Source of the DNA: Algibacter sp. L1A34
Lineage (GTDB): Bacteria > Bacteroidota > Bacteroidia > Flavobacteriales > Flavobacteriaceae
Assembly: GCF_009796805.1 (NCBI RefSeq)
Contig: NZ_CP047029.1
Span: forward strand, 1,415,501-1,479,500
Reading direction: 5' to 3'
DNA length: 64,000 nt
Shown piece after piece: positions 41,243 through 63,385 of this stretch; position 1 is the stretch's first letter; every line of letters begins with the position of its first letter. The notes beneath the pieces are model-generated. The model was not told where the DNA came from, searched no databases, and saw only the letters and a program-made list of their open reading frames with translations. The translations under genes were made by a program, and so were the position numbers.

Positions 41243-44011
41243 ATGAAAATCCCCCTGTGCTTTTTGTTGCTTTTGTTTTGCTTTTTAGGGTTTGGACAAG
41301 AGTTGCCGCCAATTGAAAGATTTACTACAGAGGATTACAGTGGTGATAATCAAAACTGGATGATTTCTCAGGCTGAAAATCAATTTATATATGTAGCAAA
41401 TAATAAAGGTTTGCTGGAGTATAATGGCTCAGAATGGAAAACGTATAGCTCACCAAATAAAACTATTATTAGAGCCGTTAACGCTATTGGAGATAGAATT
41501 TATACGGGCTGTTATGCCGATTTAGGGTATTGGGAAAAAAATAACGTAGGTACTTTAATTTATACTTCACTAAGGCCTAAGTTAGAGGTTGGAGTTTTAA
41601 ACGACAATCAAGTTTGGAATATTTTGGAGTATAATGAGTGGGTTGTTTTTCAAACAAGTAAAAGAATTTACTTTTATAATCCTAAAACTGAAACATTCAA
41701 AATTGTTTCTGCAACACAGAATATCTATAAAATATTCAAAGTTAAAAATAGAATATATTATCATGTAGCTAATCAAGGAATTTACCTTGTAGAAAATGGA
41801 AAATCCAAACTAATAGCTGCAGACGAGGTTTTAAAAACAGATCGTGTTATTAATATTTTTGAAAGCAATCAAAATTTAGTGCTAGTAACACGGAGTTCAG
41901 GTTTTTTTAATTTGTCCGATAATAAATTAACAGCCTGGGATATTTCAGCCGCAGCTTTATTAAGCGACATCGATATATTTAGCAGTATTCAATTAAAAGA
42001 TGATAGTTTTATTATTGGCACAATTTCCGATGGAGTTATTCATTTAAGTTCTAAAGGAGATTTTAAGTATCAAATTAATCAGAAAAAAGGGCTAACAAAT
42101 AATACGGTTTTATCGTTGTTTGAGGATCATGCTAAAAATGTTTGGGCGGCATTGGATAATGGGGTTAATTGCATTAATGTAAAATCTCCAATTAAAAGCT
42201 TTATCGATTACGAAGGTGTTTTGGGAACCGTTTATACTACACAAGTTTTTAAAAATAATTTATACATCGGTACAAACCAAGGTTTGTTTTATAGAGAGCT
42301 TCACGAAGTTAATAATGCTTTTAAGTTTATTGAAGGTACTGCTGGTCAGGTTTGGGAGTTGTTTAATTTAAATGATGAGTATTTGTTTTGCGGTCATCAT
42401 TTTGGCACCTTTATTATTGATAGTGATAAATCGGAAAAAATTAGTGATACACTTGGTGCATGGGGTTTCAAAACCATACCTCAACATAAAAATTATCTAC
42501 TTCAAGGGAATTATAGCGGACTTTTAGTATTAGAAAAGTTGGATAATAAATGGCGGGTTAGAAATAAAGTTGAAGGCTTTGAAAACTCCTCGAGGTATTT
42601 TGAAATAAACCATCAAAACCAAGTTTGGGTTAATCACGAATATAAAGGGGTTTTTAAGTTGAAGCTCGACGATAGTTTAACTAAAGTAGAAAAGCTAGAT
42701 ATTGAAGCAAGCTTGCCTTTAGGTGAAAGTTCTAGTTTAATAAAGTATAAGGATAATGTGCTATATGCATCTGAATATGGTGTTTATAAGTATTCTGAAG
42801 AAAATAGGGCCTTTAAGCGTGATAGCTTATTGAGTACTATTATTGATAAAAGCGATTATATATCAGGGAGGCTTGTAGTTGATAAAATAGAAAGGTTATG
42901 GACTTTTTCTAAAAAAAATGTAAGTTTCATTGAAAATGATAATTTTACAAACGCATCGGTAATAACCAATATTCCCATTCCATTAAAATTTCGAAAAGGT
43001 ATTTTTGGGTTTGAAAATATTTCATCTATTACGCCATCTACTTATGTATTGGGAACAGCAAATGGATATATTACATTAGACTTTAATGAGACTCATAAAA
43101 TAGATAGGCATTTAATTTATTTAAACAAAGTCGCATTGCATACTAATAATGATTCTGTCGTTCCTCAGGTTATTAGCACAAAGGGAGTTTTTAAGTTTAA
43201 ATACGGTTTATTAGAGTTTAATTATGCCGTTCCGGAATACGAGCGTTACGTGGGTGTAAAGTATCAATATATTCTGGAAGGTGATACCGATAAATGGAGT
43301 AAATGGAAAGAAGCATCGGCAGTTACATTCGAGAATTTATCTTTTGGTACTTATACCTTTAAGGTTAAAGCGAAAATAGGTAACATATTATCTCAAAATA
43401 TAGCAGCTTATACTTTTGAAGTTTGTAGGCCGTGGTATTTTACAAATACAGCTATTGCGGCTTATGTTCTGTTGTTTTTTGTAATTGTGTTTATTACGCA
43501 CAAGGCTTATAAACGTTATTATATTAAAAAATTCGAGAAAGAACAATTGAAGAGCCAGCAGCTAGTCATGAAAATAAAAAATGAAAAACTGAATAGTAAT
43601 ATTGAGAGTAAAAATAGAGAGTTAGCTATTTCTACCATGAGTATTATTAAAAAGAATAAGGTTTTAAACAAGATTAAAAAAGAAATTAAAAATAGCAAAG
43701 ACAACGATAACATTGAAGCAATAAAGCTTATTGATAATAATTTAAACGACAATAAAGATTGGTCGTTTTTTGAGAAAGCCTTTAACAATGCAGACAAAGA
43801 TTTTTTTGGTAAAATTAAAAAGGAGCATCCAGATTTAACACCAAACGATTTACGTTTTTGTGCATATTTAAGGCTTAATTTATCTTCAAAAGAAATGGCT
43901 CCACTTTTAAATATTTCAACTAAAAGTGTCGAGACCAAACGTTACCGTTTACGTAAAAAATTAGGTTTAGAGCATGAGGACAGTCTAGTTAACTATATGT
44001 TAAAGTTCTAG
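41243..44011 (+). CDS. One-component membrane sensor/regulator: beta-propeller, Y_Y_Y and LuxR-type HTH
   Basis: A 922-residue protein that probably senses a glycan breakdown product in the periplasm and switches on the adjoining susCD genes. Signal peptide (ends FGQ near 19); propeller-type repeats to about 640 (blocks such as VYTTQVFKNNLYIGTNQGLFYRE and NVWAALDNGVNCI); a Y_Y_Y beta domain at about 655-725; one membrane helix near 735-755; a Lys/Glu coiled coil; and a C-terminal GerE/LuxR helix-turn-helix (LSSKEMAPLLNISTKSVETKR). It lacks histidine-kinase and receiver domains, so it differs from the common hybrid two-component PUL regulators. It is encoded 297 bases upstream of susC on the same strand. 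Confidence 0.88.
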   Translation: MKIPLCFLLLLFCFLGFGQELPPIERFTTEDYSGDNQNWMISQAENQFIYVANNKGLLEYNGSEWKTYSSPNKTIIRAVNAIGDRIYTGCYADLGYWEKNNVGTLIYTSLRPKLEVGVLNDNQVWNILEYNEWVVFQTSKRIYFYNPKTETFKIVSATQNIYKIFKVKNRIYYHVANQGIYLVENGKSKLIAADEVLKTDRVINIFESNQNLVLVTRSSGFFNLSDNKLTAWDISAAALLSDIDIFSSIQLKDDSFIIGTISDGVIHLSSKGDFKYQINQKKGLTNNTVLSLFEDHAKNVWAALDNGVNCINVKSPIKSFIDYEGVLGTVYTTQVFKNNLYIGTNQGLFYRELHEVNNAFKFIEGTAGQVWELFNLNDEYLFCGHHFGTFIIDSDKSEKISDTLGAWGFKTIPQHKNYLLQGNYSGLLVLEKLDNKWRVRNKVEGFENSSRYFEINHQNQVWVNHEYKGVFKLKLDDSLTKVEKLDIEASLPLGESSSLIKYKDNVLYASEYGVYKYSEENRAFKRDSLLSTIIDKSDYISGRLVVDKIERLWTFSKKNVSFIENDNFTNASVITNIPIPLKFRKGIFGFENISSITPSTYVLGTANGYITLDFNETHKIDRHLIYLNKVALHTNNDSVVPQVISTKGVFKFKYGLLEFNYAVPEYERYVGVKYQYILEGDTDKWSKWKEASAVTFENLSFGTYTFKVKAKIGNILSQNIAAYTFEVCRPWYFTNTAIAAYVLLFFVIVFITHKAYKRYYIKKFEKEQLKSQQLVMKIKNEKLNSNIESKNRELAISTMSIIKKNKVLNKIKKEIKNSKDNDNIEAIKLIDNNLNDNKDWSFFEKAFNNADKDFFGKIKKEHPDLTPNDLRFCAYLRLNLSSKEMAPLLNISTKSVETKRYRLRKKLGLEHEDSLVNYMLKF

Positions 44012-44308: not shown

Positions 44309-47300
44309 ATGAAACTAAAACGATGTAATCAAAAAACAAAAACAATACTATGTATGCTGTTTTTGTTTGTGGCTACAATGTCGACGACACAAGCTCAAAA
44401 TATAATAAATGGAACCGTGCTAGACGAGGCAAGAATGCCTTTACCTGGTGCTTCCGTAATTCTAAAAGGAACTAATAATGGAACATCTACCGATTTTGAT
44501 GGTAAATTTTCTATAAATGTAACAAAAGACGACGCTATTTTAGAGGTGTCTTACGTGGGTTACATCACTAAAGAAGTTTCTATTTCTAGCCAATCTCTTA
44601 CTATTATACTACAACCAGATGTTAAAGCTTTAGACGAAGTTGTTGTTACGGCCTTAGGTATAAAGAGAGAACAAAAAGCACTGGGATATTCAGTACAAGA
44701 AATAAGTGGAGAAACTATTCAAAAAGTATCAGGCGTAGATATTGGTACATCACTTTCGGGAAAGGTTGCTGGGCTTTTGGTAAATAATTCAACCGATTTT
44801 AATGTAGCTCCGGAAATAACAATTAGAGGGGAAGAGCCATTATTGGTAATAGATGGTATTGCATATCAAAATAGAACGCTTAGTGATATTTCTTCAGAAG
44901 ATGTTGAGTCTATGTCTGTTCTAAAAGGAGCAACGGCTTCTGCTTTATATGGTTTTCGTGGAGCCAACGGTGCTATTTTAATCACAACAAAAAACGGAAG
45001 TACTGGTGACGATGGTTTTAGTGTTAATTTAACAAGTAACACCATGTATTCGGCAGGGTTTTTAGCTATTCCAGAGCGTCAAAGTGTTTACGGTCGAGGT
45101 ACTAACAATACTTATAACATAAATACCGACGAATCTTGGGGGCAAGTGATGGATGGCTCGTTGCAAACGCAATGGGACCCTATTGCTAAGGTGTTTAGTG
45201 AGTTTGAGTATTCTGCAATTGGTAAGGATAATTTTAAAAACTTTTTAGAGCAAGGTTCTATTACAAATAATAATATAAGTATTGCATTTAAGGAAGATAA
45301 AATTGCTTTACGAAGTTCTGTTAACTGGATAGAGCAAAAAGGACAATATCCAAATTCTAAGTTAGATAAATTCACCTATTCTTTTGGTGGAGATGTTAAT
45401 TTAGATAAGTTTAAATTAAGTTCAAACATCTCTTATTCTAAAAGAGAATCACCAAACATGGGGTCTAACGGTTATACATCTTACGACCCAATGTATTCTT
45501 TATTAATTTGGAGTCCTGCAGATTGGGATGTACGTGATTACAAAGATAATTATTGGTTAATTCCTGGGGAGTTACAAAACAACCATTACGGATACGATTT
45601 TGAAAACAATAATTATAGCGGTAAAAATCAAAACAATCCTTATTTTGATAGATATCAAAAAACCAACGAAGTATCTCGCGACATTTTTAATGCTGATTTA
45701 ACCATGAGTTATGATGTGGCAGATTGGTTAAAAGCAACGGTGCGTTCTGGGTTAGATTTTTTCGTTGATCGTGGTCAGCTTAGAGTGTCTCAAGGGTCTT
45801 ATACATCTACAGGAAATACATCTGTACCTGGTGCGTCTTCTACATGGAATGGCTCAAGAACAGGTGCTTATGTAACAGGTAAAACTCAAGGTTTCAGTAT
45901 AAATAATGATGTATTACTTTCTGGTGATAGAAAATTTCTTGATGATAAATTTGAGGTTGAATACCTTGCCGGAGGAACGATATATTACCAAAGGAATGAT
46001 AATTTAACGGCAAATACTGAAGGAGGTATTTCTATTCCCGAATTTTTCTCATTAAATGCTTCTGTAAATCCTGCTTCTGTAAATGAAAGTATAAGTCAAC
46101 AACAAGTTAATTCGGTTTTTGGTCGATTAGGTTTGTCTTGGAATAAGTTAATTTATGTTGATATCACGGGGCGTAACGATTGGAGTTCTACTTTGGCTGG
46201 CCCAGGTATTCCAGACTCAAAACAATCTTATTTTTACCCATCTTTCTCAGGGAGTTTTGTGGTGTCAGAATTAATAAAGGAATCTACTAGAGATTGGTTG
46301 GATTTGTTGAAAATAAGAAGCTCATGGACACAATCTAAAAAACCTGCAGGTATTTACGATATTAATAGTGTTTTTAGTACATCTCCAGGTACTTGGAATG
46401 ATTTAAACGGAGCAAGTGCTCCTAATAATTTATACAATTTATCAAGTATAAGTCCAGAAAGCGCAAATACTTACGAGGTTGGGTTGCAAGCGATGTTCTT
46501 TAAAAAACGCTTTACTATTGATGCGTCTTACTACAAGAAACACATGTACGATTTTTTAGAAACAGGTGCGTTATCTGCAGCATCTGGTTACACAGGAGTT
46601 GTGCTTAATAAAGATGATGAAGTAGATCGTAAAGGTTGGGAATTAGCGCTTACCGGAACTCCAATTAAAACAGACGATTTTCAATGGGATTTAGGTGTTA
46701 ACTGGTCAACTTATAAAGATGTTTATGCTAAAATAGATCAAACATATACGCAAAATGATAGTAGACCATGGATTAAAGTAGGGGAACGCACCGATCATTA
46801 TGTAGGAGCAGAGTTTATGACGGATCCAACAACAGGTCAACACGTTTACAGCAATGGACGGATAGTTAAAAATCCATACAGTTCTGTATACGGATACTCT
46901 AATCCAGATTGGATATGGGGAGCAAACTCAACGTTACGTTATAAAGATTTTAGTTTATTTCTCTCTTTTGATGGTTTAGTTGGCGGTCTATCTAGTTCTA
47001 GAACCGAGAGTTATATGTGGCAATCAGGTGTGCATCCAGATTCGGTAACACCAGAAAGAGCCTTAGATGTTGCAACACCAGGATCATCAAATTATATAGG
47101 TGAAGGTGTTATGGTTACCAGCGGAACAGTTGAGTTTGATACCGATGGTACCATCCTTAGTGATACTCGCGTTTTTGAAACAAATAATATAGCAACAACA
47201 TATTTAAGAGCAGCCAAAGATTTGCATGCCAGTAGCGCTTGGGGAGGCACAGGAACAACAACCGATGCTTTTTCTAGAACCTATCTTAAACTACGTGAAA

Positions 47301-47494
47301 TATCTTTAAGTTACAGTATTCCTTCAATGTATTTAAGTAGTTGGGGTGCTAAAAGTGCATCTATTAGTTTAATAGGTCAAAACGTGTTGTTATGGTCAAA
47401 AGATTATAAATATTCCGATCCAGATAATAGAACTGAAGATTTTGCCGATCCATCAGTTAGATATCTTGGTGCCAATATTAAAGTTTCATTTTAG
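44309..47494 (+). CDS. SusC-like TonB-dependent outer-membrane receptor (first PUL)
   Basis: A 1061-residue TonB-linked channel importing an oligosaccharide with its SusD partner. Signal peptide ends TTQAQ; a carboxypeptidase-D-like domain follows (GTVLDEARMPLPGASVILKG); then the TonB-box region (LDEVVVTALG), the plug (LLVIDGIAYQN, SALYGFRGANGAILITTKNG), and the beta-barrel to the end (final strand ANIKVSF). This order is the standard SusC architecture. The RGEEPLLVIDG segment is shorter than in many relatives, which usually have extra residues between RG and PL. A regulator lies upstream and the SusD gene downstream. Confidence 0.93.
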   Translation: MKLKRCNQKTKTILCMLFLFVATMSTTQAQNIINGTVLDEARMPLPGASVILKGTNNGTSTDFDGKFSINVTKDDAILEVSYVGYITKEVSISSQSLTIILQPDVKALDEVVVTALGIKREQKALGYSVQEISGETIQKVSGVDIGTSLSGKVAGLLVNNSTDFNVAPEITIRGEEPLLVIDGIAYQNRTLSDISSEDVESMSVLKGATASALYGFRGANGAILITTKNGSTGDDGFSVNLTSNTMYSAGFLAIPERQSVYGRGTNNTYNINTDESWGQVMDGSLQTQWDPIAKVFSEFEYSAIGKDNFKNFLEQGSITNNNISIAFKEDKIALRSSVNWIEQKGQYPNSKLDKFTYSFGGDVNLDKFKLSSNISYSKRESPNMGSNGYTSYDPMYSLLIWSPADWDVRDYKDNYWLIPGELQNNHYGYDFENNNYSGKNQNNPYFDRYQKTNEVSRDIFNADLTMSYDVADWLKATVRSGLDFFVDRGQLRVSQGSYTSTGNTSVPGASSTWNGSRTGAYVTGKTQGFSINNDVLLSGDRKFLDDKFEVEYLAGGTIYYQRNDNLTANTEGGISIPEFFSLNASVNPASVNESISQQQVNSVFGRLGLSWNKLIYVDITGRNDWSSTLAGPGIPDSKQSYFYPSFSGSFVVSELIKESTRDWLDLLKIRSSWTQSKKPAGIYDINSVFSTSPGTWNDLNGASAPNNLYNLSSISPESANTYEVGLQAMFFKKRFTIDASYYKKHMYDFLETGALSAASGYTGVVLNKDDEVDRKGWELALTGTPIKTDDFQWDLGVNWSTYKDVYAKIDQTYTQNDSRPWIKVGERTDHYVGAEFMTDPTTGQHVYSNGRIVKNPYSSVYGYSNPDWIWGANSTLRYKDFSLFLSFDGLVGGLSSSRTESYMWQSGVHPDSVTPERALDVATPGSSNYIGEGVMVTSGTVEFDTDGTILSDTRVFETNNIATTYLRAAKDLHASSAWGGTGTTTDAFSRTYLKLREISLSYSIPSMYLSSWGAKSASISLIGQNVLLWSKDYKYSDPDNRTEDFADPSVRYLGANIKVSF

Positions 47495-47585
47495 TAAAAA
47501 CACATATAGAAATAAGCAAGGTTGCAATGTCAATATTAAATACCAAGCAAATTCTATTTTACTGATAACAATTAAATAAAAACAA

Positions 47586-49112
47586 ATGAAAAATTTAAAA
47601 TATATATATTTATTAACAGTCTTAGTTGCTTTTACATATTCATGTAGCAATTTTGAAGATATAAATACAAATCCAGATGCATCTACCATTGTTGCTCCAG
47701 ATATGTTAGCAACCCAAGTATTGAAAAATACATTTACAACCAACGGAAGTGGAGTCTTTGAGTTTGTATCAGGTAACTTATTCAATAAACATATTGCTGC
47801 CTTAGATCCAAGTATTCCAAGTTCAGCACAATATTATTTTGCATCTTTTGGTAGTTTTGGTGATTATAGTATGCTTACCGATTTGAAGTTTATGACGCAA
47901 TTTGCCGAAGGAAACCAAGCTGAAGCATCTTATAAGGGTTTAGCGTTATATCTAAAAGCATATTACGGCTTATCGGCAACATTAGCGATGGGTGATGTGC
48001 CTTATTCTGAAGCAGGTATGGCGGACGAAGGGATTACACGACCTATTTACGACAAACAAGCAGATGTATTTGTTCAAATTTTAGACGATTTACAAACAGC
48101 AGAAGCCTATTTTGCCCAAGGTTATAATTTTGATGGAGATATTATGTATGATGGTGATGCTGCAAAATGGCAAAAGCTATGTAATGCTATGCAGTTAAAA
48201 GTGATACAAACCATAAGTAAACAAGCTACAGATGATCAAAAGGCTCGTTTTGCTGCTGTAGTAAGTGCAGGTAATTTATTGGAAAGTAACGATGATAATT
48301 TCAAATTGGTTTACACCGAAATTTCAAATGCTAACCATCAATTCTATAATGGTGAAAACCTTAGAATTAATACAGCTATTTCAAAACTAACTGTCGATTT
48401 CTTGAAAACAAATAAAGATCGCAGATTGTTTTATTTTGCCGAACCTGCACAAATATTATTAGATGCTGGAAATTCTGCTTCTGATTTTGATGCCTACGAA
48501 GGTGCTTTAACATCTTTAGATCCAACTACATTAGCTTTTAACAAAGATAATGGCGATTATTCTTTATTAAACTCACGTTATGTTAATTTTATGGATGGAG
48601 AGCCCTTGTTGCGTTTTACTTTTGCCGAACAATGTTTTATTATTGCTGAAGCTATTGAAGAAGGTTGGGTTACCGGAAATGCTCAAGAATATTACGAAAA
48701 TGGAGTAAAAGCTATGCTTGAATATTATAAAGATTTGCCAAATACAGATGGTTATGTTCAGGGTATGGCTATCGATCAAGCTTATATTGATAATTATTTT
48801 ACTGGAGACGCAGTTTATGCCACTACAGGAACCAAAGCAGATAGATTAAAACAAATTTTAACACAACGTTGGTTAATAGATTTCTTTCAGGGTAATGGAG
48901 GTAATTATCCCCAATTTTTAAGAACTGGTTTTCCTGAATATCCGTTAGATCCAGCAACAAGTTTAAATCCTGATGATACTTCGGTTTACCCAAAGCGTTG
49001 GAAATATCCGGTGTCAGAACAAACAACAAACCCTGATAATTATCAAAAGGCTATTGATGATCAGTACGATGGGTATGATGGTATAAATAAAACACCTTGG
49101 TACTTGCAGTAA
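47586..49112 (+). CDS. SusD/RagB-like outer-membrane lipoprotein (SusD-like 2 branch)
   Basis: A 508-residue glycan-binding lipoprotein sitting on the SusC channel. Lipobox FTYSC (Cys20) is followed by the SNFEDINTNPD signature of the SusD-like-2 branch, distinct from classical SusD. GLALYLKAYYGLSATLAMGDVPYSEA and a C-terminal region with LKQILTQRWLIDFFQGNG fit. It belongs with the SusC gene 91 bases upstream. A strong terminator follows it, so the enzyme genes beyond may be transcribed at lower level. Ligand unknown, possibly beta-glucan fragments given GH16 downstream. Confidence 0.9.
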   Translation: MKNLKYIYLLTVLVAFTYSCSNFEDINTNPDASTIVAPDMLATQVLKNTFTTNGSGVFEFVSGNLFNKHIAALDPSIPSSAQYYFASFGSFGDYSMLTDLKFMTQFAEGNQAEASYKGLALYLKAYYGLSATLAMGDVPYSEAGMADEGITRPIYDKQADVFVQILDDLQTAEAYFAQGYNFDGDIMYDGDAAKWQKLCNAMQLKVIQTISKQATDDQKARFAAVVSAGNLLESNDDNFKLVYTEISNANHQFYNGENLRINTAISKLTVDFLKTNKDRRLFYFAEPAQILLDAGNSASDFDAYEGALTSLDPTTLAFNKDNGDYSLLNSRYVNFMDGEPLLRFTFAEQCFIIAEAIEEGWVTGNAQEYYENGVKAMLEYYKDLPNTDGYVQGMAIDQAYIDNYFTGDAVYATTGTKADRLKQILTQRWLIDFFQGNGGNYPQFLRTGFPEYPLDPATSLNPDDTSVYPKRWKYPVSEQTTNPDNYQKAIDDQYDGYDGINKTPWYLQ

Positions 49113-49136
49113 TAATTCTGTAAGATATAAACTTAT

Positions 49137-49175
49137 AAAAAATCTAAAGACGAATTATTTGTCTTTAGATTTTTT
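49137..49175 (+). terminator. Intrinsic terminator between susD and the GDPD-GH16 gene
   Basis: The stem AAAAAATCTAAAGAC (49137-49151) pairs perfectly with GTCTTTAGATTTTTT (49161-49175) around a 9-base loop. It lies inside the PUL, between transport and enzyme genes. Confidence 0.85.
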
Positions 49176-49205
49176 GATGCTTAAAATATTTAATGACTAT
49201 AGATT

Positions 49206-50792
49206 ATGTTAAAACTAATAAGTAAAATTTTTTCAATACTATTAATAGTTTGTTTTTATTCCTGTGATGAAAATTCTAACACAAAAATAAATTTTGCCAA
49301 AAACCCGGTTATAGCGCACCGTGGCGCATGGAAAAGTCAAAATTTACCTAAAAATTCAATAGCTTCATTAAAGCAAGCTATTGCTCTCGGATGCACAGGT
49401 TCGGAGTTTGATGTTAGAATGACTGCAGATAATGTACTCATTGTTGCTCACGATGCAGAATATCACGGATTAGAGGTGGAAAAATCTACTTATGCAGAAT
49501 TGTCCAAATTCAAATTATCAAACGGTGAAATACTCCCCACTTTAAAAGCATATATTTTGGCAGGAATAACCAATAATGATTCTACAGGTTTGGTCTGCGA
49601 AATAAAACCTTCTAAAATTAAAGGGCGAAATGCGGACATTGCCGAAAACGTTGTCTCTTTGGTTAAAGAGCTAAAGGCGGATCCTTATATTTTGACTTAT
49701 ATTAGTTTTAGTTACGATACTCTCAAGAAAATTAAAACGCTTGATGCGCAAGCAAAAACCCAGTATCTAGATGGGTCAAAGGCACCAGAAACATTAAGTT
49801 TAGATGGTATTTCAGGATTAGATTATTTGGTTTATAAGTTGAAAAAACATCCGGAATGGATTTCGTCGGCCAAAAAAATGGGATTAACGCTAAATGCTTG
49901 GACAGCTAATAAGGCTGAAAACATTGAGTGGTTACTTGTAAATAATTTCGATTATATTACAACAGACGAACCTGAATTGGTTTTTAAAAGCATTGATAAG
50001 AGCCCTATAAATAAAGGATATCAACTTGTTTGGAGCGATGAGTTTAACTATGAAGGCAAGCCCGATTCAGCAAAATGGACCTATGATTATGGGTTTAAAG
50101 CTAATAATGAAAAACAGTATTTTACCGATAGTTTAAAAAATGCAAGGGTAGAAAACGGGTATTTAATTATTGAAGCTCATAAAGAGAAAGTTGCTAATAA
50201 GGATTTTAAAAACCCTGAGATTAAGGGATGGCAAAAATATAAGTCTGAAATTGATAGTGCCCAGTATACATCGGTTCGATTAAAAACAGAAGGTCTTGCA
50301 GCATGGGAATACGGCCGTATTGAGGCTAGAGCAAAATTACCTAAAGGTCGCGGTATGTGGCCAGCAATTTGGATGCTGAGTGAAAAGAGGGAAGGTATAG
50401 ATTGGCCGGAAAGTGGCGAAATTGATATCATGGAGCATGTTGGTTATGATAATGATACCATTCATGGTACTATACACACTAAGGCTTACAATCATACAAA
50501 AGGGACGCAAAAGGGCAAAACTATTTTTATTGATAAGCCTAATGATACATTTCATATGTTTGCTGTAGAATGGACGCCCGAAAAAATAGATTTTATTTTG
50601 GATGGAGTGGTGTACAATCATATTGAAAATGAACATAAAACCACTGCAGAATGGCCTTTTGATAATCAGTTTTATTTAATAATGAATGTTTCCGTTGGTG
50701 GTATGTGGGGCGGGAGACAAGGCATAGATGATTCTATTTTTCCCCAGAAAATGGTGGTCGATTATGTACGCGTTTTTCAACAAAAAAACTAA
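49206..50792 (+). CDS. GDPD-GH16 fusion: glycerophosphodiester phosphodiesterase plus beta-glucanase
   Basis: A 528-residue lipoprotein (lipobox FYSC, Cys20) that joins two enzymes in one open frame. Residues 33-262 are a GDPD barrel with its catalytic set: HRG (H38, R39), E67 and D69 in EFDVRMTADN, H82 in AHDAE, and E132/K134 in CEIKPS. Residues 272-525 are a GH16 domain with WSDEFNYEGKPDSAKW and the catalytic GEIDIME block (E405, D407, E410), as in laminarinases cutting beta-1,3-glucans. Both sites look intact. Known roles: GDPD hydrolyses phosphodiester groups with glycerol, GH16 cuts beta-glucans. The natural substrate may be a beta-glucan with glycerophosphate groups, which is inference. 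An ATG start after the terminator and an EEP gene next fit a PUL enzyme set. Confidence 0.92.
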   Translation: MLKLISKIFSILLIVCFYSCDENSNTKINFAKNPVIAHRGAWKSQNLPKNSIASLKQAIALGCTGSEFDVRMTADNVLIVAHDAEYHGLEVEKSTYAELSKFKLSNGEILPTLKAYILAGITNNDSTGLVCEIKPSKIKGRNADIAENVVSLVKELKADPYILTYISFSYDTLKKIKTLDAQAKTQYLDGSKAPETLSLDGISGLDYLVYKLKKHPEWISSAKKMGLTLNAWTANKAENIEWLLVNNFDYITTDEPELVFKSIDKSPINKGYQLVWSDEFNYEGKPDSAKWTYDYGFKANNEKQYFTDSLKNARVENGYLIIEAHKEKVANKDFKNPEIKGWQKYKSEIDSAQYTSVRLKTEGLAAWEYGRIEARAKLPKGRGMWPAIWMLSEKREGIDWPESGEIDIMEHVGYDNDTIHGTIHTKAYNHTKGTQKGKTIFIDKPNDTFHMFAVEWTPEKIDFILDGVVYNHIENEHKTTAEWPFDNQFYLIMNVSVGGMWGGRQGIDDSIFPQKMVVDYVRVFQQKN

Positions 50793-50804: not shown

Positions 50805-51656
50805 ATGAAATACAATATTTTAGTATGTTTCACTCTAATTTTGAGTATAATGAGTTGTAATAATGAAATTAAAAAGGAAGGTCAAAACTTAAAGATGATG
50901 ACTTACAATATCCGTTTAGATGTCGCCTCAGATGGAGATAATGCATGGCCAAACAGAAAAGATTTTTTAAGTGAGCAAGTATTGTTTAATAGTCCAGATA
51001 TTTTGGGGGTTCAGGAAGCGAAACCAAATCAAATGGCCGATTTAAAAAGAGCTTTAACGGGCTATAACGCCATCGGTGTTGGTCGTGATGGTAAAAATAT
51101 AGGCGAATTTTCTGCAATATTTTATAATGCTGAAAAGCTAAAAGTTGAGAATGAAAACACGTTTTGGCTTTCAGAAACACCAAATCAAATTTCTAAAGGT
51201 TGGGATGCTGCATATCCCAGAATTTGCACATACGGTTTGTTTACAAACTTAGAAAATAACACCAAGTTTTGGGTGCTTAATACCCATTTAGACCATAAAG
51301 GGCACGAAGCGCAATTGCAGGGTGTTGCTCTAATTCAGGATAAAATAAAAGCGCTTAACACAAATAATTTGCCTATTGTTTTAATGGGAGATTTTAATGC
51401 CGAACCTAACACCGAGTTAATTACGGAACTTAGACAAAGTATGGACGATTCTAAAGGCTTAGCAAAAGTAATTTTTGGCTCTAATGGTACTTTTAATGGT
51501 TTTAAGACTGAAAAACTAGTTACTCGTAGAATTGATTATATTTTTGTTTCTAAAACTAATATTGAAGTTGAAAAATATGGTGTGTTATCGAGTTTGGTGG
51601 ATTTGAAATATCCTTCAGATCACTTTCCTGTTTTAACCGAATTAATCATTAAATAA
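50805..51656 (+). CDS. Secreted endonuclease/exonuclease/phosphatase-family enzyme
   Basis: A 283-residue lipoprotein (lipobox SIMSC, Cys18) with an EEP fold: MMTYNIRLDV at the first strand, the metal-binding Glu in GVQEAK (E71), TRRIDYIFVS, GDFNAEP and the catalytic SDHFPV. This superfamily cuts phosphodiesters in DNA, lipids or sugars. Secretion and a PUL setting, 12 bases after the GDPD-GH16 gene, make a nuclease role less likely and a phosphodiesterase or phosphatase acting on a phosphorylated glycan or glycerol-phosphate product plausible (inference). It ends the first PUL. Confidence 0.85.
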   Translation: MKYNILVCFTLILSIMSCNNEIKKEGQNLKMMTYNIRLDVASDGDNAWPNRKDFLSEQVLFNSPDILGVQEAKPNQMADLKRALTGYNAIGVGRDGKNIGEFSAIFYNAEKLKVENENTFWLSETPNQISKGWDAAYPRICTYGLFTNLENNTKFWVLNTHLDHKGHEAQLQGVALIQDKIKALNTNNLPIVLMGDFNAEPNTELITELRQSMDDSKGLAKVIFGSNGTFNGFKTEKLVTRRIDYIFVSKTNIEVEKYGVLSSLVDLKYPSDHFPVLTELIIK

Positions 51657-51762: not shown

Positions 51763-52470
51763 TTATTGAACGGTAAACTCAAAAACCTGAGATTCCGAAG
51801 TGTTGTTATTATCATCTTTAGTGATAACACGCCAAAAATAAGTATTGCCAGAGCCCACGGTTATCGAAACATTATTGCTGCTTGTGGTAGCCTGCGATTG
51901 TATTGGCGGATTTACGGTTCCAAAAAGGACTTCGTATTCTGTAATATCATTATCAACATCTTCTCCCGACCATTGTAGAGATAAGTTAGTGGTCGATGCT
52001 GCTAAGGAAACTGATAGAGCAGGACTAACTAATTCCGCTGGAAATGGCGCATAAGAGGATGTTGCTTCGCCTGCGTTATAAAATTTCCAAGTATTACTTT
52101 GTGCTGTTTCTGTTACTGTATTTTTAGAAACCACATACCAAGAATATGGCGTGCCTCGTAAAATAGCAACACTTTTTTCTGAAACCGAACTTGTGTAATT
52201 GGTTGTAGTTTGTGTGTCTAAATTTTTAATGAATAATTGATATGATGTTGCATTTTGAGCATCATTCCATTTGAATAGAATAGTACTTTCTGTACTTGTT
52301 ATGTTAGAACCTTCGGTGCACTCCGAGTTTTCACTAGGAAAAATTAAAGTTGTCGCCTTTGGAGCATCGATTTCATTTTCTGTATTTCCATCATTATCAC
52401 TGCTGCTGCAGTTTAAAAGTAACAGACAAAAAATAAAGCTTCCGAAGATATATTTAGTTGAATTTCTCAT
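51763..52470 (-). CDS. Small lipoprotein with two fibronectin-III-like domains
   Basis: A 235-residue lipoprotein (lipobox LLLLNC, Cys21) followed by two beta-sandwich domains, about residues 35-125 (KATTLIFPSEN, then YSWYVVSKN) and 140-235 (PAELVSPALSVS, then FWRVITKDD). The pattern resembles the FN3-type N-terminal domains of SusE-like proteins. No catalytic residues are visible; it may bind glycan at the cell surface. Its start overlaps the amylase stop by one base, so the two are coupled and in the alpha-glucan PUL. Confidence 0.75.
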   Translation of the reverse strand: MRNSTKYIFGSFIFCLLLLNCSSSDNDGNTENEIDAPKATTLIFPSENSECTEGSNITSTESTILFKWNDAQNATSYQLFIKNLDTQTTTNYTSSVSEKSVAILRGTPYSWYVVSKNTVTETAQSNTWKFYNAGEATSSYAPFPAELVSPALSVSLAASTTNLSLQWSGEDVDNDITEYEVLFGTVNPPIQSQATTSSNNVSITVGSGNTYFWRVITKDDNNNTSESQVFEFTVQ

Positions 52471-55400
52471 TAGTTCTTAATTATTTTAAAGCTGTTATTC
52501 ACTGTTTTTGTAACCACTTTTAGTATATAAATACCTTTATTGAATTTAGAGGCATCAATTTTAAGTGTATTGGTTTTTGTTTCGTTGTTATAAACGCGTT
52601 TTCCTAAAAGAGAATATATTTCTACGTTAGCTTTTTCGCCTTGTAATTCACCTAAATAAAGGGTTAATTCGTTGTTTGATATAGGATTAGGAAAAACCGA
52701 CATGCTGTTATTGTAAAACATAGATTCTTCATATTTACCTTGACAAATTTTATCGGTTTCTACGGTGATTTGGTTTTCTCCTGTTTGTAAATCCAGTTCA
52801 ATGGCAGAATTAGAAGTTTCTGTAATGGTGCCATTGAGCGTGATTTTGTAAAGTGTGCCTCCGCTTAAATTTAGTGTAATCCCTTTTTTGTCGTTTGTTT
52901 GTCTAGAAAGTACAGATAAGTTTTCTGGTTCTGTAATGGTTACATTGTAGCATTGCTTATATTCTGGCTCATCTTCAACGGTAATACAGATGTTGTAATC
53001 GCCTGCGTTTAAGTCATTTTTAATAAAAGTACTTGTAAAAGTATCTTCACTATTCAGGTTATTTCCAATAATTGTTGCGGTGTAATTTAGGTTTTTTTCT
53101 GCGGAAATATTAATGTAGCCATTGTTGCTGTTTCTGCAAGTTTCATTACCTATTTGTAAGCTAAAATTATTGGCCGGCAAGCTAAATATTTCACAGCCAT
53201 TGGCATCTACAGTAGCTCCTAAGGTTGTGTTGCTGCAACTATCATCTTCATTTAAAACACCATCGCTATCTAAATCTTCTGGATTAATAAAAGGTTTATC
53301 GGCATAGATAATATATTCTCCAGCTTTTAGAGTAATGGAAGCGGTTGCATTTGTAACTTCCATAGGTGTATTTCTATTTAAAATATTATACCAAGTGCCT
53401 GTTTGTTGAAAATCTGGAGTGATGTTTTGTGCAGTAATTCCGAAATTACCAAGAATGGTGACATATTTTATTTGATCTTCCGTGGCGCTCTCTAAGGTCA
53501 GGTGTATAGATTTTACGCCTGATGTTTTATCGGTATCTACTTCAAAATTAGAAGTTTTAAAAATAGGTTCCTCAAGCTTAAGCCTAATTAAATTGCGCCA
53601 AGTATCATGAACAGATTTCCTATTAACGTTATCTAAATAGTCCCAAAGAATAGGTTTGTTACCAACTCTTCCGTTTTCATCAATCGAAATATCATAACCT
53701 AATTCACCAAATTGCCAAATCATTTTTGGACCAGGAACGGTGAAGAAAAATGCGCCTGCAGTTTCTACACGTTTTAAAGCGGTATTTAAATCTTTTACAT
53801 TGTAAAGTGTATTTGAAGCTCCAAAATTTAGGTTTCTGTACATCATGCGTTCTTCATCATGACTTTCCATATAACTCACTGATGATGTTGCTTGTGCAAA
53901 ACCTTTTTGTTTATATGAAACGTTTCCGAAGTTCGATTTTCCATTATCAAAGAAACCCATAGTAGCGTCGCTATAAGAACCGTTTAAATTATTCCAAAGC
54001 ATAATGCCTTTGCCTTCGTTTACACGGTAGTTTGCCCATTCGCTTTCTTCGGTTATACCACCTAAATGTTCAAAAATTATATAGAAATCATCTTTTTTAT
54101 CCCATTGATAATCGGCATATAGTTTTAAAACATCTACACGGTCTTGTTGATAACTACCTGTACAACTCTCATTGTTTTCGGTACAATTTTGTGTAAAACC
54201 TTTGGTTAGATCCCATCGGAAACCATCAATATTATATTCATCAATCCAAAATTGCGTAACGCGTTTTACATAGTCTCGTGTGGCTGTTTCACTGTGGTTA
54301 AAGTCGTTAAAAACACCGTAAGCATGCTTTGCTGTTTGGTTAAAAAAGGGATTATCGGCAGATGCTGTTCCTCCGTAATTTCCGTTATCGGTGTTCCAAA
54401 GGCGGTAATATGGGTTTTGCCCTGAAGCATGATTAAAAACGACATCGACAATAATGGCAATACCACGACGATGACATTCATCCACAAGAGCTTTAAAAGC
54501 ATTTTGTGTGCCATAATATTTATCGAGCGCCATATGGAACGATGGGTTGTAACCCCAACTTTCATTACCATCAAATTCATTTAAAGGCATTAACTCTATG
54601 GCGTTTATACCGAGATTTTCAATATAATCGAGTCTGCTTTTTAAAGCATCAAAACTGTGTAAGGCATCAAAGTCACGAAGTAATAATTCGTAAATTACTA
54701 AATCGGTTTTTTCTGGTGGTGTAAAATTAGTTGTTTGCCAATTATATGTTGCATCCCCTGTTCTTAATAACGTGACGCTATGATTGGTTTTTCCTGTTGG
54801 ATATGCTGGTAAATCTGGATAGGTTACCGCATTAATATATTGGTCGTTAGATTCTGCTAAAACTACTGGGGAATAAGGATCTGCAATTCTTATTGAAGCA
54901 TCAACCATATATTGATACATGTGGTTGGTTTGTGGTGTTAATCCTGTTAATTCAATCCAAAAACGATCTTTACTACTGTCCTTTTTCATTAAAAAAGCAT
55001 CATCAATTGTCCAGTCATTAAAATCGCCTATAACATGTACAAATTGTTTCCCTGGTGCGTAAAGTACTAAAGTAGCCTTTGTATTATCGGCTTCATTGTA
55101 ATTAATACCATCCAATAAATCTGTTGGTAAAGCAGCTTCTGTAACTGTTGGAGTTACTATGGCTTCAAAAGTTTTAGATTGGGTTTGTGTGCCATCGGTA
55201 ATTTGTAATTCGAATGTTGTAGTTTCGTTTACTATATAATTGTTGGTATATGTTGTAACTCCCGTTGCTATATCTACAGAAATGTTATTAGCTAAAAGTG
55301 TGAAATCGGCTGTTGTACTTGAAGTTGCATTGATAGGTAATGTTTCTCCAGCATTTAAAATGGTTGTTGTTTCTGTAGGCATGTTTAAAAATAGTTGAAA

Positions 55401-55829
55401 AGAACCAATATCGAAAAAGAAATCGGAACAACCTGATGCTTTTAATTCTTGATTTCCCGATGCGTTTCTAAAAACCATACCCATTTTGGTAGATTCATTT
55501 TGTTGCTCGGTTGTTAAACTATAATAAACGGATGGTGTTATAGTAATGCTCCATGTACCGTTGTTATTGTTTGTCATTTCGCCAATGCCATCGTCAACGC
55601 CCCAATTACCTATGGTTTTAATACCCCAAGCATCAGCATCGTTTCCTACGCCAGAGTGCATATATACTTTGTTAGGTGAGGAAATACTATTGCAGTCTGT
55701 TGCGGTACTGTTTAAGTCCACTGTTATGGTGATTTCGCTTGTAACTTCAAAAGTATTAGGTAAAATAGTAACTTGCGAAATAGCTGTTAAACTAAGTAGC
55801 AAGAAAGAAAATAGTAACAGTTTTTTCAT
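52470..55829 (-). CDS. Large GH13 alpha-amylase with type IX secretion sorting domain
   Basis: A 1119-residue secreted enzyme cutting alpha-1,4-glucans. Signal peptide; an N-terminal beta domain (20-150); an Ig-like part (150-230); a CBM48-type E-set domain (APGKQFVHVIGDFNDW, 258-273); then the GH13 barrel with region I DVVFNH (462-467), nucleophile D540 in GFRWDL, acid/base E587 in IIFEHLG and D658 in ESHDEE. Residues 852-880 (LDSDGVLNEDDSC) look like a calcium-binding thrombospondin-3-type repeat. The last 75 residues (SVFPNPISNN to FKIIKN) are a type IX sorting tail, for outer-membrane export and possibly surface attachment. Confidence 0.93.
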   Translation of the reverse strand: MKKLLLFSFLLLSLTAISQVTILPNTFEVTSEITITVDLNSTATDCNSISSPNKVYMHSGVGNDADAWGIKTIGNWGVDDGIGEMTNNNNGTWSITITPSVYYSLTTEQQNESTKMGMVFRNASGNQELKASGCSDFFFDIGSFQLFLNMPTETTTILNAGETLPINATSSTTADFTLLANNISVDIATGVTTYTNNYIVNETTTFELQITDGTQTQSKTFEAIVTPTVTEAALPTDLLDGINYNEADNTKATLVLYAPGKQFVHVIGDFNDWTIDDAFLMKKDSSKDRFWIELTGLTPQTNHMYQYMVDASIRIADPYSPVVLAESNDQYINAVTYPDLPAYPTGKTNHSVTLLRTGDATYNWQTTNFTPPEKTDLVIYELLLRDFDALHSFDALKSRLDYIENLGINAIELMPLNEFDGNESWGYNPSFHMALDKYYGTQNAFKALVDECHRRGIAIIVDVVFNHASGQNPYYRLWNTDNGNYGGTASADNPFFNQTAKHAYGVFNDFNHSETATRDYVKRVTQFWIDEYNIDGFRWDLTKGFTQNCTENNESCTGSYQQDRVDVLKLYADYQWDKKDDFYIIFEHLGGITEESEWANYRVNEGKGIMLWNNLNGSYSDATMGFFDNGKSNFGNVSYKQKGFAQATSSVSYMESHDEERMMYRNLNFGASNTLYNVKDLNTALKRVETAGAFFFTVPGPKMIWQFGELGYDISIDENGRVGNKPILWDYLDNVNRKSVHDTWRNLIRLKLEEPIFKTSNFEVDTDKTSGVKSIHLTLESATEDQIKYVTILGNFGITAQNITPDFQQTGTWYNILNRNTPMEVTNATASITLKAGEYIIYADKPFINPEDLDSDGVLNEDDSCSNTTLGATVDANGCEIFSLPANNFSLQIGNETCRNSNNGYINISAEKNLNYTATIIGNNLNSEDTFTSTFIKNDLNAGDYNICITVEDEPEYKQCYNVTITEPENLSVLSRQTNDKKGITLNLSGGTLYKITLNGTITETSNSAIELDLQTGENQITVETDKICQGKYEESMFYNNSMSVFPNPISNNELTLYLGELQGEKANVEIYSLLGKRVYNNETKTNTLKIDASKFNKGIYILKVVTKTVNNSFKIIKN

Positions 55830-55924
55830 CTGTTTTAGGTTTTAGTTAAGTTGGAATACTTTAAATAAAAGATGTTATTGAAGAAAACTATAATTGACAG
55901 TTTTATTCTACAACCTTCTTTTTA

Positions 55925-55957
55925 GAGAAAAAAAAGGCTGATAAAAACCAGCCTCTT
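55925..55957 (-). terminator. Intrinsic terminator between the SusF-type gene and the amylase gene
   Basis: On the minus strand AGGCTG and CAGCCT pair around an 8-base loop, followed by eight T. It lies inside the PUL, between transport/binding genes and the enzyme gene. Confidence 0.75.
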
Positions 55958-55973
55958 TTGTATGTTGAATAAT

Positions 55974-57440
55974 TTAGTTCGGAATTATATTATAACTTCC
56001 ATCTAAATCGTTGAACCAGAAATCGTAACTTCCTGTTTCTGCGTTAAACGGAATGTTGTCTCCGCCGCCAGATAAATTAGCTTTACCATAAAGTTCATTA
56101 GATCCTGAATATCTCCAAACATCTGCCCAATCATCATTTGCTCTAATTAAGATAAAACCTCCATTTGTTAATGTTACACCATTGATGTACCATAAGTGTG
56201 GGTTATTTGCATCTTGAGTAAAATTAGTGTCATTATCACCATCCCAACCGTTTGGTGTAGCGTCTCCAATAATAGCCATAGAAGTATATGTTGGTGCTGT
56301 TGAAGCATCGTAAGCTTCTACTGTAAAACTTCCAGATTCTCCAACTGTAGTAAAATTATAAGAGTAATAACCTGCAGTTGCTACATTGAATGTTCCTGGG
56401 TCTGAACCACTACCGGTATTTACTGCTAAAGCAGCTCCGTCGTTTGTTCCCCATTGTGGTTGCCATGTGCCTTTAGTTTCTAGTAATTTAAAATCTCCTG
56501 CTCCAAAATACCCAATATAAACATAATTGTTTGGTACATCTTGATTTCTAAACAATGGTGTGTTGTTGTTATCATTGCTCCATCCTGGTGATGTTGCGTC
56601 TCCAACTACATATAAGTTAGGGAAGGCAGAAAGGTAAGGTGTAACAGAAACGGTTACCACTTCTGAAATTCTAGTTAATTCGTTTCCTCCTGCATTTATA
56701 TTTTTAGCAATAATTCTAATATCCATATCGCCAGCAACTTCTGGTGTTAAACCAATTCCGATAGCAACAGCATTTAATTCTGAATGTGTTGATGATACCG
56801 TATTAGCGTTAGTTGTAGTTCCAATAGAAACAGGACTTGCAAAATCGCTTCCTGCTATAGCGGCTTCAATGGTGTAGTTTATGTCGATTCCTAAAGAAGA
56901 TTCTAAAACAGCATCCGTCCAATTTACAGTTAATACAGTTTCATCTACAGAGCCTATTGATAATACAAAAGCATCACTTTCTAGAGGGCTAGAAATTACC
57001 GGTGCATCTGTTGGATAACGGGTTGCTAGTAATAAAATACTGTTAGAGATTTCACTTCCAGCTGAAACTCTCATGTACGCTGGTACGTCTCTAAAGGTTG
57101 TTACTCCAGTGCTTGCAATTGCATTGTTGAATTCTGCAACCGTCATTGAAAAATTTTTCGCTTCGGTTGTTCCTAAAGTTATAGGTGATGTAAATTCAGC
57201 ATCGGTTGACATTTCGATGGTGTATGAGCTGCTTCCTGTAACCTCATCTTCCCATGACAATGTAAATGCAGGATTATCTGGCAATGCAAAATTTAAAAAC
57301 ACTGTACTAATGCCAGGTGTATTTAGAACAAACTCAGCATCTGGTGCGGTAATTGTTAGGCTCTCTTCGGTTTCGCACGAAGCGAAAAGCATTGTTGACA
57401 AAAGCAACAGAAAGCTTATTTTGTTTATATAAAATTTCAT
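55974..57440 (-). CDS. SusE/SusF-type outer-membrane starch-binding lipoprotein
   Basis: A 488-residue surface lipoprotein (lipobox LFASC, Cys22). Two SusE-type sandwich domains (about 35-140, with PAFTLSWEDEVTGSSSYTI, and 150-265) precede two starch-binding domains (about 270-375 beginning LYVVGDATSPGWSND, and 385-488 beginning IIGDATPNGWDGDND), each with the Trp-rich pattern of SusE/F glycan sites. It lies between the SusE-type gene and the amylase in the alpha-glucan locus. Naming it SusF is by position and size, not by a clear subfamily match. Confidence 0.87.
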   Translation of the reverse strand: MKFYINKISFLLLLSTMLFASCETEESLTITAPDAEFVLNTPGISTVFLNFALPDNPAFTLSWEDEVTGSSSYTIEMSTDAEFTSPITLGTTEAKNFSMTVAEFNNAIASTGVTTFRDVPAYMRVSAGSEISNSILLLATRYPTDAPVISSPLESDAFVLSIGSVDETVLTVNWTDAVLESSLGIDINYTIEAAIAGSDFASPVSIGTTTNANTVSSTHSELNAVAIGIGLTPEVAGDMDIRIIAKNINAGGNELTRISEVVTVSVTPYLSAFPNLYVVGDATSPGWSNDNNNTPLFRNQDVPNNYVYIGYFGAGDFKLLETKGTWQPQWGTNDGAALAVNTGSGSDPGTFNVATAGYYSYNFTTVGESGSFTVEAYDASTAPTYTSMAIIGDATPNGWDGDNDTNFTQDANNPHLWYINGVTLTNGGFILIRANDDWADVWRYSGSNELYGKANLSGGGDNIPFNAETGSYDFWFNDLDGSYNIIPN

Positions 57441-57465
57441 ATTTTTTCTATTAAGTGGATTAATA

Positions 57466-58593
57466 TTATAAGTTTAATGGCACAAGAATGTAACGACCAG
57501 TGAAGTCGTTAAACCAAACATCGTAATCATCTTCTACTATTACAGGAACTTGTTCGCCACCATCGGTAGCTACTCCAGAGAATCCTGTTGAGCCACCCCA
57601 AGTAGAGCCAGCGTTTGTTAAAAATGAAATATCTCCTGGTGTTAAATGTATAGCTGCTGCATACCACATGTGGCTGTCAATAGTCAATGGTGTTAAAGCG
57701 GTTGTTGCTGTACTTGACCCTTGGATATCAATACTAGAAAAATCTGTTGCTCCAGAATAATCAAACGGAGTTAATGTGTATTTTTTAGTAGAAAAATCGA
57801 TTGTAAATTGATAATAACCAGCATTTGGTACTCCAAAACGTCCTGGGTCTCCAGATTGTGTTGTTGGATTTCCGGCAATATCACCCGCTTCTGCAGGGGT
57901 ATCATCTCCTTCATTTGGAGTAACTCCCCATTGTGGTTGCCATAAACCTCGGCTCTCTAAAATTTTGAATCGACCTTCGTCAAATCCTCCTGCGTTAGCA
58001 AAATAACCAGTATAGTAATATAAATTTTGGTTATCGGCATCTCTAAATAATGGTGGATTGTTAAGGTTGTTGTTCCAGCCTGGAGCCACGCCGTTTCCTA
58101 CTAAATAGTAATCGTTAAATACGTAGTTGTAATACGGGTATACATCAAATTGTATTGCGTTTGATGCTGTCGATTCTCCATTTTGTGATCCTAAAGATGC
58201 TACTACTCTTGTGTATAAAGTAGCCCAACTAAAAGGATCTAAACCAGCACTACCTGCTGCTGCATTTATTTCGCTTGTAGATAATGTAAGGTTATTACGC
58301 CCAGTTACGGTAGATGCGGTTACAGGTGTTGTAAAAGCCTCGTCGTTTGCGAACTGTACCGCGTAATTAATAGAGGTTTGTTGTCCGTAATCCGATTCTT
58401 CCCAGTTTAGTGATAAAGCTGGGTTGTTTGAGTTATCGGCATCAAGTTCTATTTGGCTAAAGTTTAAATCGGCTAAAATTGGTGCTGATGGCGTTGAAAC
58501 TTTATATATATCGGTAGTGTCGTCGCAAGAACTCAGGCATAGTAAAACTAAACCAATAATGCTAAACACTGAAATGTTTTTAAATTTTTTCAT
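57466..58593 (-). CDS. SusE-type outer-membrane starch-binding lipoprotein
   Basis: A 375-residue lipoprotein (lipobox LCLSSC, Cys23) with an N-terminal SusE-type sandwich (about 30-145, with NPALSLNWEESDYG) and two starch-binding domains, 155-265 (YYLVGNGVAPGWNNNLNNPP) and 280-375 (DYDVWFNDFTGRYILVPL). The layout is shorter by one sandwich than the gene product after it. It holds alpha-glucan at the cell surface for the SusC/SusD pair. It is 20 bases downstream of the SusD-like gene, in one operon. Confidence 0.88.
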   Translation of the reverse strand: MKKFKNISVFSIIGLVLLCLSSCDDTTDIYKVSTPSAPILADLNFSQIELDADNSNNPALSLNWEESDYGQQTSINYAVQFANDEAFTTPVTASTVTGRNNLTLSTSEINAAAGSAGLDPFSWATLYTRVVASLGSQNGESTASNAIQFDVYPYYNYVFNDYYLVGNGVAPGWNNNLNNPPLFRDADNQNLYYYTGYFANAGGFDEGRFKILESRGLWQPQWGVTPNEGDDTPAEAGDIAGNPTTQSGDPGRFGVPNAGYYQFTIDFSTKKYTLTPFDYSGATDFSSIDIQGSSTATTALTPLTIDSHMWYAAAIHLTPGDISFLTNAGSTWGGSTGFSGVATDGGEQVPVIVEDDYDVWFNDFTGRYILVPLNL

Positions 58594-58613
58594 GGTCTTT
58601 ATTTGTTTTTAAT

Positions 58614-60215: not shown

Positions 60216-60226
60216 AGTTGTGTTTT

Positions 60227-63271: not shown

Positions 63272-63385
63272 TGTTGATAAGTTTTCATTATTTAGCTCTT
63301 AAATTGTGAATTTCATAGAAACAGACTGTGTTAAATAATGAAATATCTATATGGCGTTAAGTATATTTTTTGTTATTTTACTTCA

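Follow-up and report, generated by a model that had tools for sequence, protein, structure and literature searches.

The stretch of DNA analysed here (the window) comprises 64,000 nucleotides of the genome of Algibacter sp. L1A34, a single contig of 4.64 Mb, and contains a five-gene operon lying entirely on the forward strand. It encodes, in order, a regulator, a SusC-type transporter, a SusD-like lipoprotein, a fusion of a glycerophosphodiester phosphodiesterase (GDPD) to a family 16 glycoside hydrolase (GH16) and a protein of the EEP family (Table 1), beyond which the genes are oppositely oriented. A SusC/SusD pair adjoining a glycanase gene on one strand (44309-50792) is the gene arrangement of a polysaccharide utilisation locus (PUL). 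The regulator scores 27.5 bits for its Y_Y_Y domain (cut-off 26.6) and 19.3 bits for GerE, under the cut-off of 23.5. On the reverse strand, positions 51763-63148 hold a starch-type locus whose products are SusC, SusD, lipoproteins of SusE/F type and a large protein resembling alpha-amylase; a LacI-like regulator lies at 63338. These names were given by eye, the SusC similarity alone being computed.

Table 1. Coordinates of the operon genes and of the parts of the fusion protein, in window positions
Feature	Position	Strand	Evidence
Operon regulator, 922 aa, Y_Y_Y and weak C-terminal LuxR-type HTH	41243..44011	+	Pfam
SusC-type TonB-dependent transporter	44309..47494	+	TIGR04056, 516 bits (cut-off 368)
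SusD-like lipoprotein (SusD-like_2)	47586..49112	+	PF12771, 207 bits (cut-off 27); lipoprotein signal by eye
GDPD-GH16 fusion lipoprotein, 528 aa	49206..50792	+	One frame, both Pfam domains, full-length 7WW4 match
Lipoprotein signal peptide, lipobox cysteine C20	49206..49265	+	Sequence pattern; residues 1-25 pLDDT <50
GDPD catalytic domain, residues 38-257	49317..49976	+	Pfam; H38 R39 E67 D69 H82 E132 K134
GH16 domain, ~residue 272 to end	50019..50789	+	Pfam, laminarinase structures; E405 D407 E410
EEP-family protein, probably lipoprotein, possible sugar/glycerol phosphatase	50805..51656	+	PF03372 (Exo_endo_phos), 67 bits (cut-off 24.5)

A sequence-only reading of this DNA had described the fourth gene as one uninterrupted frame with complete GDPD and GH16 catalytic sets, anchored as a lipoprotein, and this description holds. 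The fusion is confirmed as genuine, a single frame with GDPD N-terminal to GH16 and with all ten named catalytic residues present and correctly numbered. Assignment to the GDPD family follows from the profile (PF03009, 81.1 bits, cut-off 23.6) together with the full catalytic set, and that to GH16 from the profile (Glyco_hydro_16, residues 347-520, 93.1 bits, cut-off 22) together with ExDxxE, the catalytic motif of this family; solved laminarinases align to the protein from residue 272. Lipoprotein anchoring is predicted from the lipobox LIVCFYS-C20, which both visual inspection and a simple pattern recognise. At least 56 distinct fusions were collected (59 minus three duplicates, the window's own counted). 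Among the matches listed, the seven GDPD positions, which we take to be catalytic in the fusion, are each kept in 56/56, as are E405 and D407 of GH16, and E410 is kept in 55/56 (Gln in L088). This invariance speaks against the idea that the GDPD half has lost its enzymatic activity and now has a structural or binding role, which appears very improbable, even though no published activity for this domain was found in the open-licence literature and the PDB titles of the two solved homologues, 7WW4 and 7WWC, mention a beta-1,3(4)-glucanase only.

Full-length fusions occur in 11 of 299 Flavobacteriaceae genomes and, in a phylum-wide draw, in 9 of 395 genomes, one of the nine having a stop inside the match; a scan of genome contigs yielded at least 79 loci. 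Fusions among the matches listed belong to named Flavobacteriaceae, Pedobacter, Runella, Fulvivirga, Draconibacterium, Saprospiraceae, Chitinophagaceae and others, and the fusion protein of the same-genus genome G153 is that of the Algibacter pacificus locus L067. The sequence-only reading had named two findings that would overturn it, a sequencing join and confinement to one genome. An assembly join is excluded because the window genome is a single contig and the full-length fusion is shared within the family, and the distinct fusions in several Bacteroidota groups rule out an oddity of a single genome.

The AlphaFold2 model of the fusion (31 sequences; pLDDT 90.7, pTM 0.85) is confident over both domains, and its best Foldseek match is 7WW4 (502 columns, TM 0.88/0.96, 48% identity), a full-length GDPD-GH16 homologue from Pedobacter terrae. 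The title of 7WWC describes a complex with laminaritriose, and the nearest GH16 structures (7wwc, 3iln and 6xof) are laminarinases or endo-beta-1,3(4)-glucanases. With its closest solved relatives named for beta-1,3-glucan, the GH16 half is classed by similarity as laminarinase-like. The osmoregulated periplasmic glucans (OPGs) of E. coli have a beta-1,2/1,6 backbone, and because of this backbone and the laminarinase-like GH16 domain a substrate of that type is judged unlikely. The sequence-only reading had put forward OPGs as an example of a phosphoglycerol-substituted glucan; they can carry this group (PMC10514313, excerpt), and the nearest GH16 structures lend the example no support. The GDPD-GH16 architecture is already known from the solved structures of a Pedobacter terrae protein (7WW4, 7WWC); 7WWC is described as a glucanase of this species without accompanying publication (PMC12448869, excerpt). 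In Table 2 of a wheat-straw metasecretome study, four Sphingobacterium-like proteins assigned to CAZy GH16 have glycerophosphodiester or glycerophosphoryl diester phosphodiesterases as best hits (PMC4666044, excerpt), and these four probably share the architecture. No discussion of a GDPD-GH16 fusion was found in the open-licence literature.

The gene context of the fusion was surveyed by counting same-strand relatives of seed proteins around the 56 fusion loci among the matches listed. The counts are lower bounds, because flanks extend at most ~10 kb and are often cut off by the end of a contig. SusD relatives accompany at least 28 of these loci, EEP at least 22 (21 within 50 bp), GH3 at least 17, GH30 at least three and phospholipase C at least 16, with GlpF at no fewer than 13, GlpK at no fewer than 12 and GlpD at no fewer than one. 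Relatives of both the regulator and SusD lie on the fusion's strand at 22 or more of the 56 loci; among the 22 listed, EEP is found at 20, GH3 at 16 and any glp gene at 13, the nine loci that have no glp gene including the window. In flavobacteria the fusion belongs to a SusC/SusD operon; EEP usually comes next, GH3 is often present, and glpD, glpK and glpF lie nearby in many genomes. The SusC/SusD position of the operon is filled by one of two distinct subtypes depending on the genome (L039-L072), which looks like a swap of the transporter pair.

The EEP gene starts 12 bp past the fusion gene. Its solved relatives are nearly tied, 3mpr (no stated function) at 178.4 bits and the mannosyl-6-phosphatase 4c1r at 177.8 bits, and the protein is a possible sugar or glycerol phosphatase by this similarity. 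N35, E71, H161, D196, N198, D244, D272 and H273, presumably active-site residues, are each kept in at least 28 of 29 sequences, and the model has a pLDDT of 85.3. A lipobox, IMSC, was recognised by eye; the simple lipobox pattern gave no match. An EEP-family phosphatase within a Bacteroidetes glycan locus is also a feature of the yeast-mannan PUL from which 4c1r comes, although there the substrate is reportedly mannan and the phosphodiester is said to be opened by GH92, not by GDPD.

Canonical laminarin PULs comprise GH16, GH17 and SusC/D. The window operon has in common with these the SusC/D pair and a laminarinase-type GH16, but it differs in adding GDPD and EEP and in lacking GH17, which a Pfam scan of its proteins failed to detect. 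A separate laminarin-type locus (L146, ~1.50-1.52 Mb) is present in the same genome, with two GH16 genes (one product with PKD) and GH17; it further holds SusC and SusD relatives and PKD and CBM4/9 proteins. This separate locus bears on the proposal that the operon is an ordinary laminarin locus to which a phosphorus-scavenging domain unrelated to glucan breakdown has become attached. The laminarinase-like GH16 half would suit such a view, as would the commonness of GDPD domains, of which the window's genome has five, the fusion counted. However, the genome already has its GH16/GH17 locus, and unfused relatives hold GDPD beside GH16 in some cases and beside glp genes in others, and the proposal is considered improbable.

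The link to glycerol genes was examined in the same 299 Flavobacteriaceae genomes, using thresholds of E<=1e-230 for the glpK type and E<=1e-55 for the GDPD type. The former occurs in 41 genomes and the latter in 23, with both present in 12; in ten of these 12, glpK and GDPD lie within 13 kb, against a chance expectation of ~0.65% per genome (a 26-kb span in ~4 Mb at random position), G297 being unlinked and G047 lying on a contig too short to be judged. The count of ten is inflated by kinship, because six of these genomes have a common gene order, possibly the outcome of a single inherited event; in G094, also among the ten, the GDPD is less closely related (47%) and its neighbourhood is different. 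The genes glpD-K-F lie upstream of the operon in G134, G209, G244, G119, G125 and G157. Elsewhere, glp genes are found downstream (G070), at the operon end (G133) or, as glpK-F, directly upstream of GDPD (G225), and the order glpD-GDPD-EEP occurs at L110 and L117. Such a variety of arrangements makes one ancestral accident less likely as the cause of the linkage. Conversely, 29 of the 41 glpK-type genomes have no GDPD of this type, and the window operon itself contains neither a GH3 nor a glp gene. The window genome has its glpF-K-D genes at ~157 kb, ~1.3 Mb from the operon, and at 2.50 Mb it encodes its closest counterpart (55% identity) to the linked GH3. No GlpK was detected at E<=1e-60 in three of the 11 fusion-bearing Flavobacteriaceae (G153, G173 and G181); the other eight in this comparison are G000 and G047, which were examined separately, and six more. 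Glycerol catabolism as an obligatory part of the system is ruled out by these three genomes and by the unlinked glp genes of the window genome.

Separate trees of the GDPD and GH16 domains, a step proposed in the sequence-only reading, suggest that the partnership has changed repeatedly; both are quick trees of modest support that do not distinguish gains from losses of the fusion. The fused/alone label requires at least ten changes on the GDPD tree, five of them forced by well-supported branches, and seven on the GH16 tree, three of them so forced. The fused GH16 domains of L047, L048, L081, L088 and L102 sit on a far branch (length 1.13, support 100). The GDPD domains of the first four, not that of L102, cluster with those of L074 and L075 and of unfused genes (support 88), and the fused GH16s of L074 and L075 belong elsewhere. 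This phylogenetic pattern makes it probable that GDPD has fused with different GH16 partners, which argues for a shared job. At five of the 21 GDPD-only loci among the matches listed, distinct GDPD and GH16 genes lie side by side on one strand. At the Fulvivirga locus L074 (9866-12324), a second, unfused GDPD gene shares 4 bp with the end of the fusion gene.

Other unfused loci have GDPD without GH16. In Winogradskyella (L106 and L109) and in G157, the regulator and SusC/D are kept and an unfused GDPD takes the place of the fusion; EEP is present at two of these three loci. No GH16 remnant was detected by tblastn (E<=1) in the fetched stretches of seven GDPD-only loci from six genomes, and GH16 therefore appears dispensable in L106, L109 and G157, where the operon with GDPD is kept and GH16 is absent from the stretches examined. 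A Ugp-type ABC transporter near unfused GDPD genes, suggested by gene lengths, was rejected when profile scans identified the genes as mevalonate pathway, UbiA, GH13, GH65 and other functions.

The Pedobacter fusions differ in their setting. A phospholipase C gene lies directly downstream of the fusion at 16 of the 22 Pedobacter loci among the matches listed (L105 ends too soon to be judged), and the sole copy scored, from P. terrae (L083, 11566-13947), scores as a phosphocholine-specific phospholipase C, with 743 bits against a cut-off of 580. Among the Pedobacter fusions listed, no convincing lipobox was recognised by the simple pattern (one weak match, L097), and their fetched flanks contained no relative of the window SusD or EEP. 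The Pedobacter terrae glucanase and the window protein have the same fold and full-length architecture (502 aligned columns, 48% identical), but the former has no convincing lipobox and no SusD relative in the fetched flanks, and phospholipase C is its neighbour.

These settings are pertinent to a looser relationship between the two activities, in which glycerophosphodiesters, such as phospholipid head groups, and beta-glucan are scavenged together from algal, plant or microbial debris. No covalent link between the two substrates would exist, the fusion would serve to co-localise the activities, and phosphorus and glycerol would be the main gain. The GDPD-EEP loci in which no GH16 gene was seen (L109 and G157, and L110 and L117 with glpD added) are consistent with this scheme, as are the phospholipase C neighbours in Pedobacter. 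On this view the locus would be akin to the phosphate utilisation systems (PUS) of Flavobacterium. Those systems offer a precedent, since they, like the window operon, combine SusC/D-like transporters with phosphodiesterases and are Pi-regulated (PMC8115612, main text); neither GDPD nor glucan is mentioned there, whereas the window fusion carries a glycanase. The GH3 and GH30 genes at 17 and three, respectively, of the 56 fusion loci listed and the fusion of GDPD to different GH16 partners across clades also weigh against joint scavenging, which is regarded as somewhat unlikely.

The sequence-only reading had suggested that the two domains serve a substrate in which a phosphodiester sits on, or blocks access to, a beta-glucan. 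This idea is strengthened by the recurrence of glp genes, the EEP gene, the Pedobacter phospholipase C, the adjacent GDPD and GH16 genes and the exchange of GH16 partners, and is tempered by the looser joint scavenging or phosphorus supply just described. From neighbourhood and conservation, we infer that the operon is, at close to even chances, a PUL for a beta-1,3-glucan (or mixed beta-1,3/1,6-glucan) bearing a glycerophosphate-type phosphodiester, with both fusion domains acting on the polymer. The GH16 half would cut the glucan chain at the cell surface, whilst the GDPD half would hydrolyse the phosphodiester substituent to release glycerol-3-phosphate (or glycerol and a sugar phosphate). 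EEP would then take the phosphate off glycerol phosphate or the sugar, SusC/SusD would import the oligosaccharide, and GH3, where present, would finish it. Glycerol would enter via GlpF and, where the genes are linked, be metabolised by GlpK and GlpD. In this scheme the surface location, the order of the steps, the nature of the substituent and the joint action of both domains on a single molecule are all presumed. Counted in its favour were the invariant GDPD residues, the laminaritriose of 7WWC, the EEP and glp linkage and the separate GH16/GH17 locus of the genome. Counted against it were the operons without a GH16 match, the unlinked glp and GH3 genes of the window genome, the fusion genomes with no GlpK at E<=1e-60, the glpK-type genomes with no GDPD of this type, the shared gene order and the Pedobacter fusions, with no convincing lipobox and no SusD or EEP relative in the fetched flanks.

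GlpQ belongs to the GDPD family and is, to our knowledge, not fused to a glycanase. Described as a glycerophosphodiesterase that degrades wall teichoic acid (PMC7086022, excerpt), it offers a precedent for such an enzyme acting on a glycerol-phosphate polymer, although its substrate is a Gram-positive wall polymer. Marine and soil bacteria may eat a beta-glucan decorated with glycerol phosphate. In its fullest form, this proposal holds that a glycerophosphate-decorated beta-1,3-glucan, unreported in the open-licence literature, exists in sea and soil and is met by a dedicated Bacteroidota machine of fused GDPD-GH16, EEP phosphatase and linked glycerol pathway that harvests glucose, glycerol and phosphate from one polymer; this is a speculative extension, rather doubtful as it stands. 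A phosphocholine form of the substrate in Pedobacter would fit the phospholipase C neighbour. If the decorated-glucan proposal is true, a phosphorylated beta-glucan that has yet to be described can be predicted from the operon, which also supplies the means of searching for it. A single bacterial locus would then tie polysaccharide turnover to the recycling of phosphorus and glycerol, and enzymes for detecting and stripping the decoration would become available.

Two further genes recur beside the glp genes. In several genomes the glp-operon block also contains a sulfatase gene and a gene of 250 aa, whose L177 copy, the one scored, is of DeoR type. The sulfatase-family gene, with a CSPSR motif, accompanies the glp-PUL block at L040 (7074-8552), L173, L174, L177, L178 and L179; it was found in seven of the 11 genomes searched and, in six of these seven, lies within ~15 kb of the operon.
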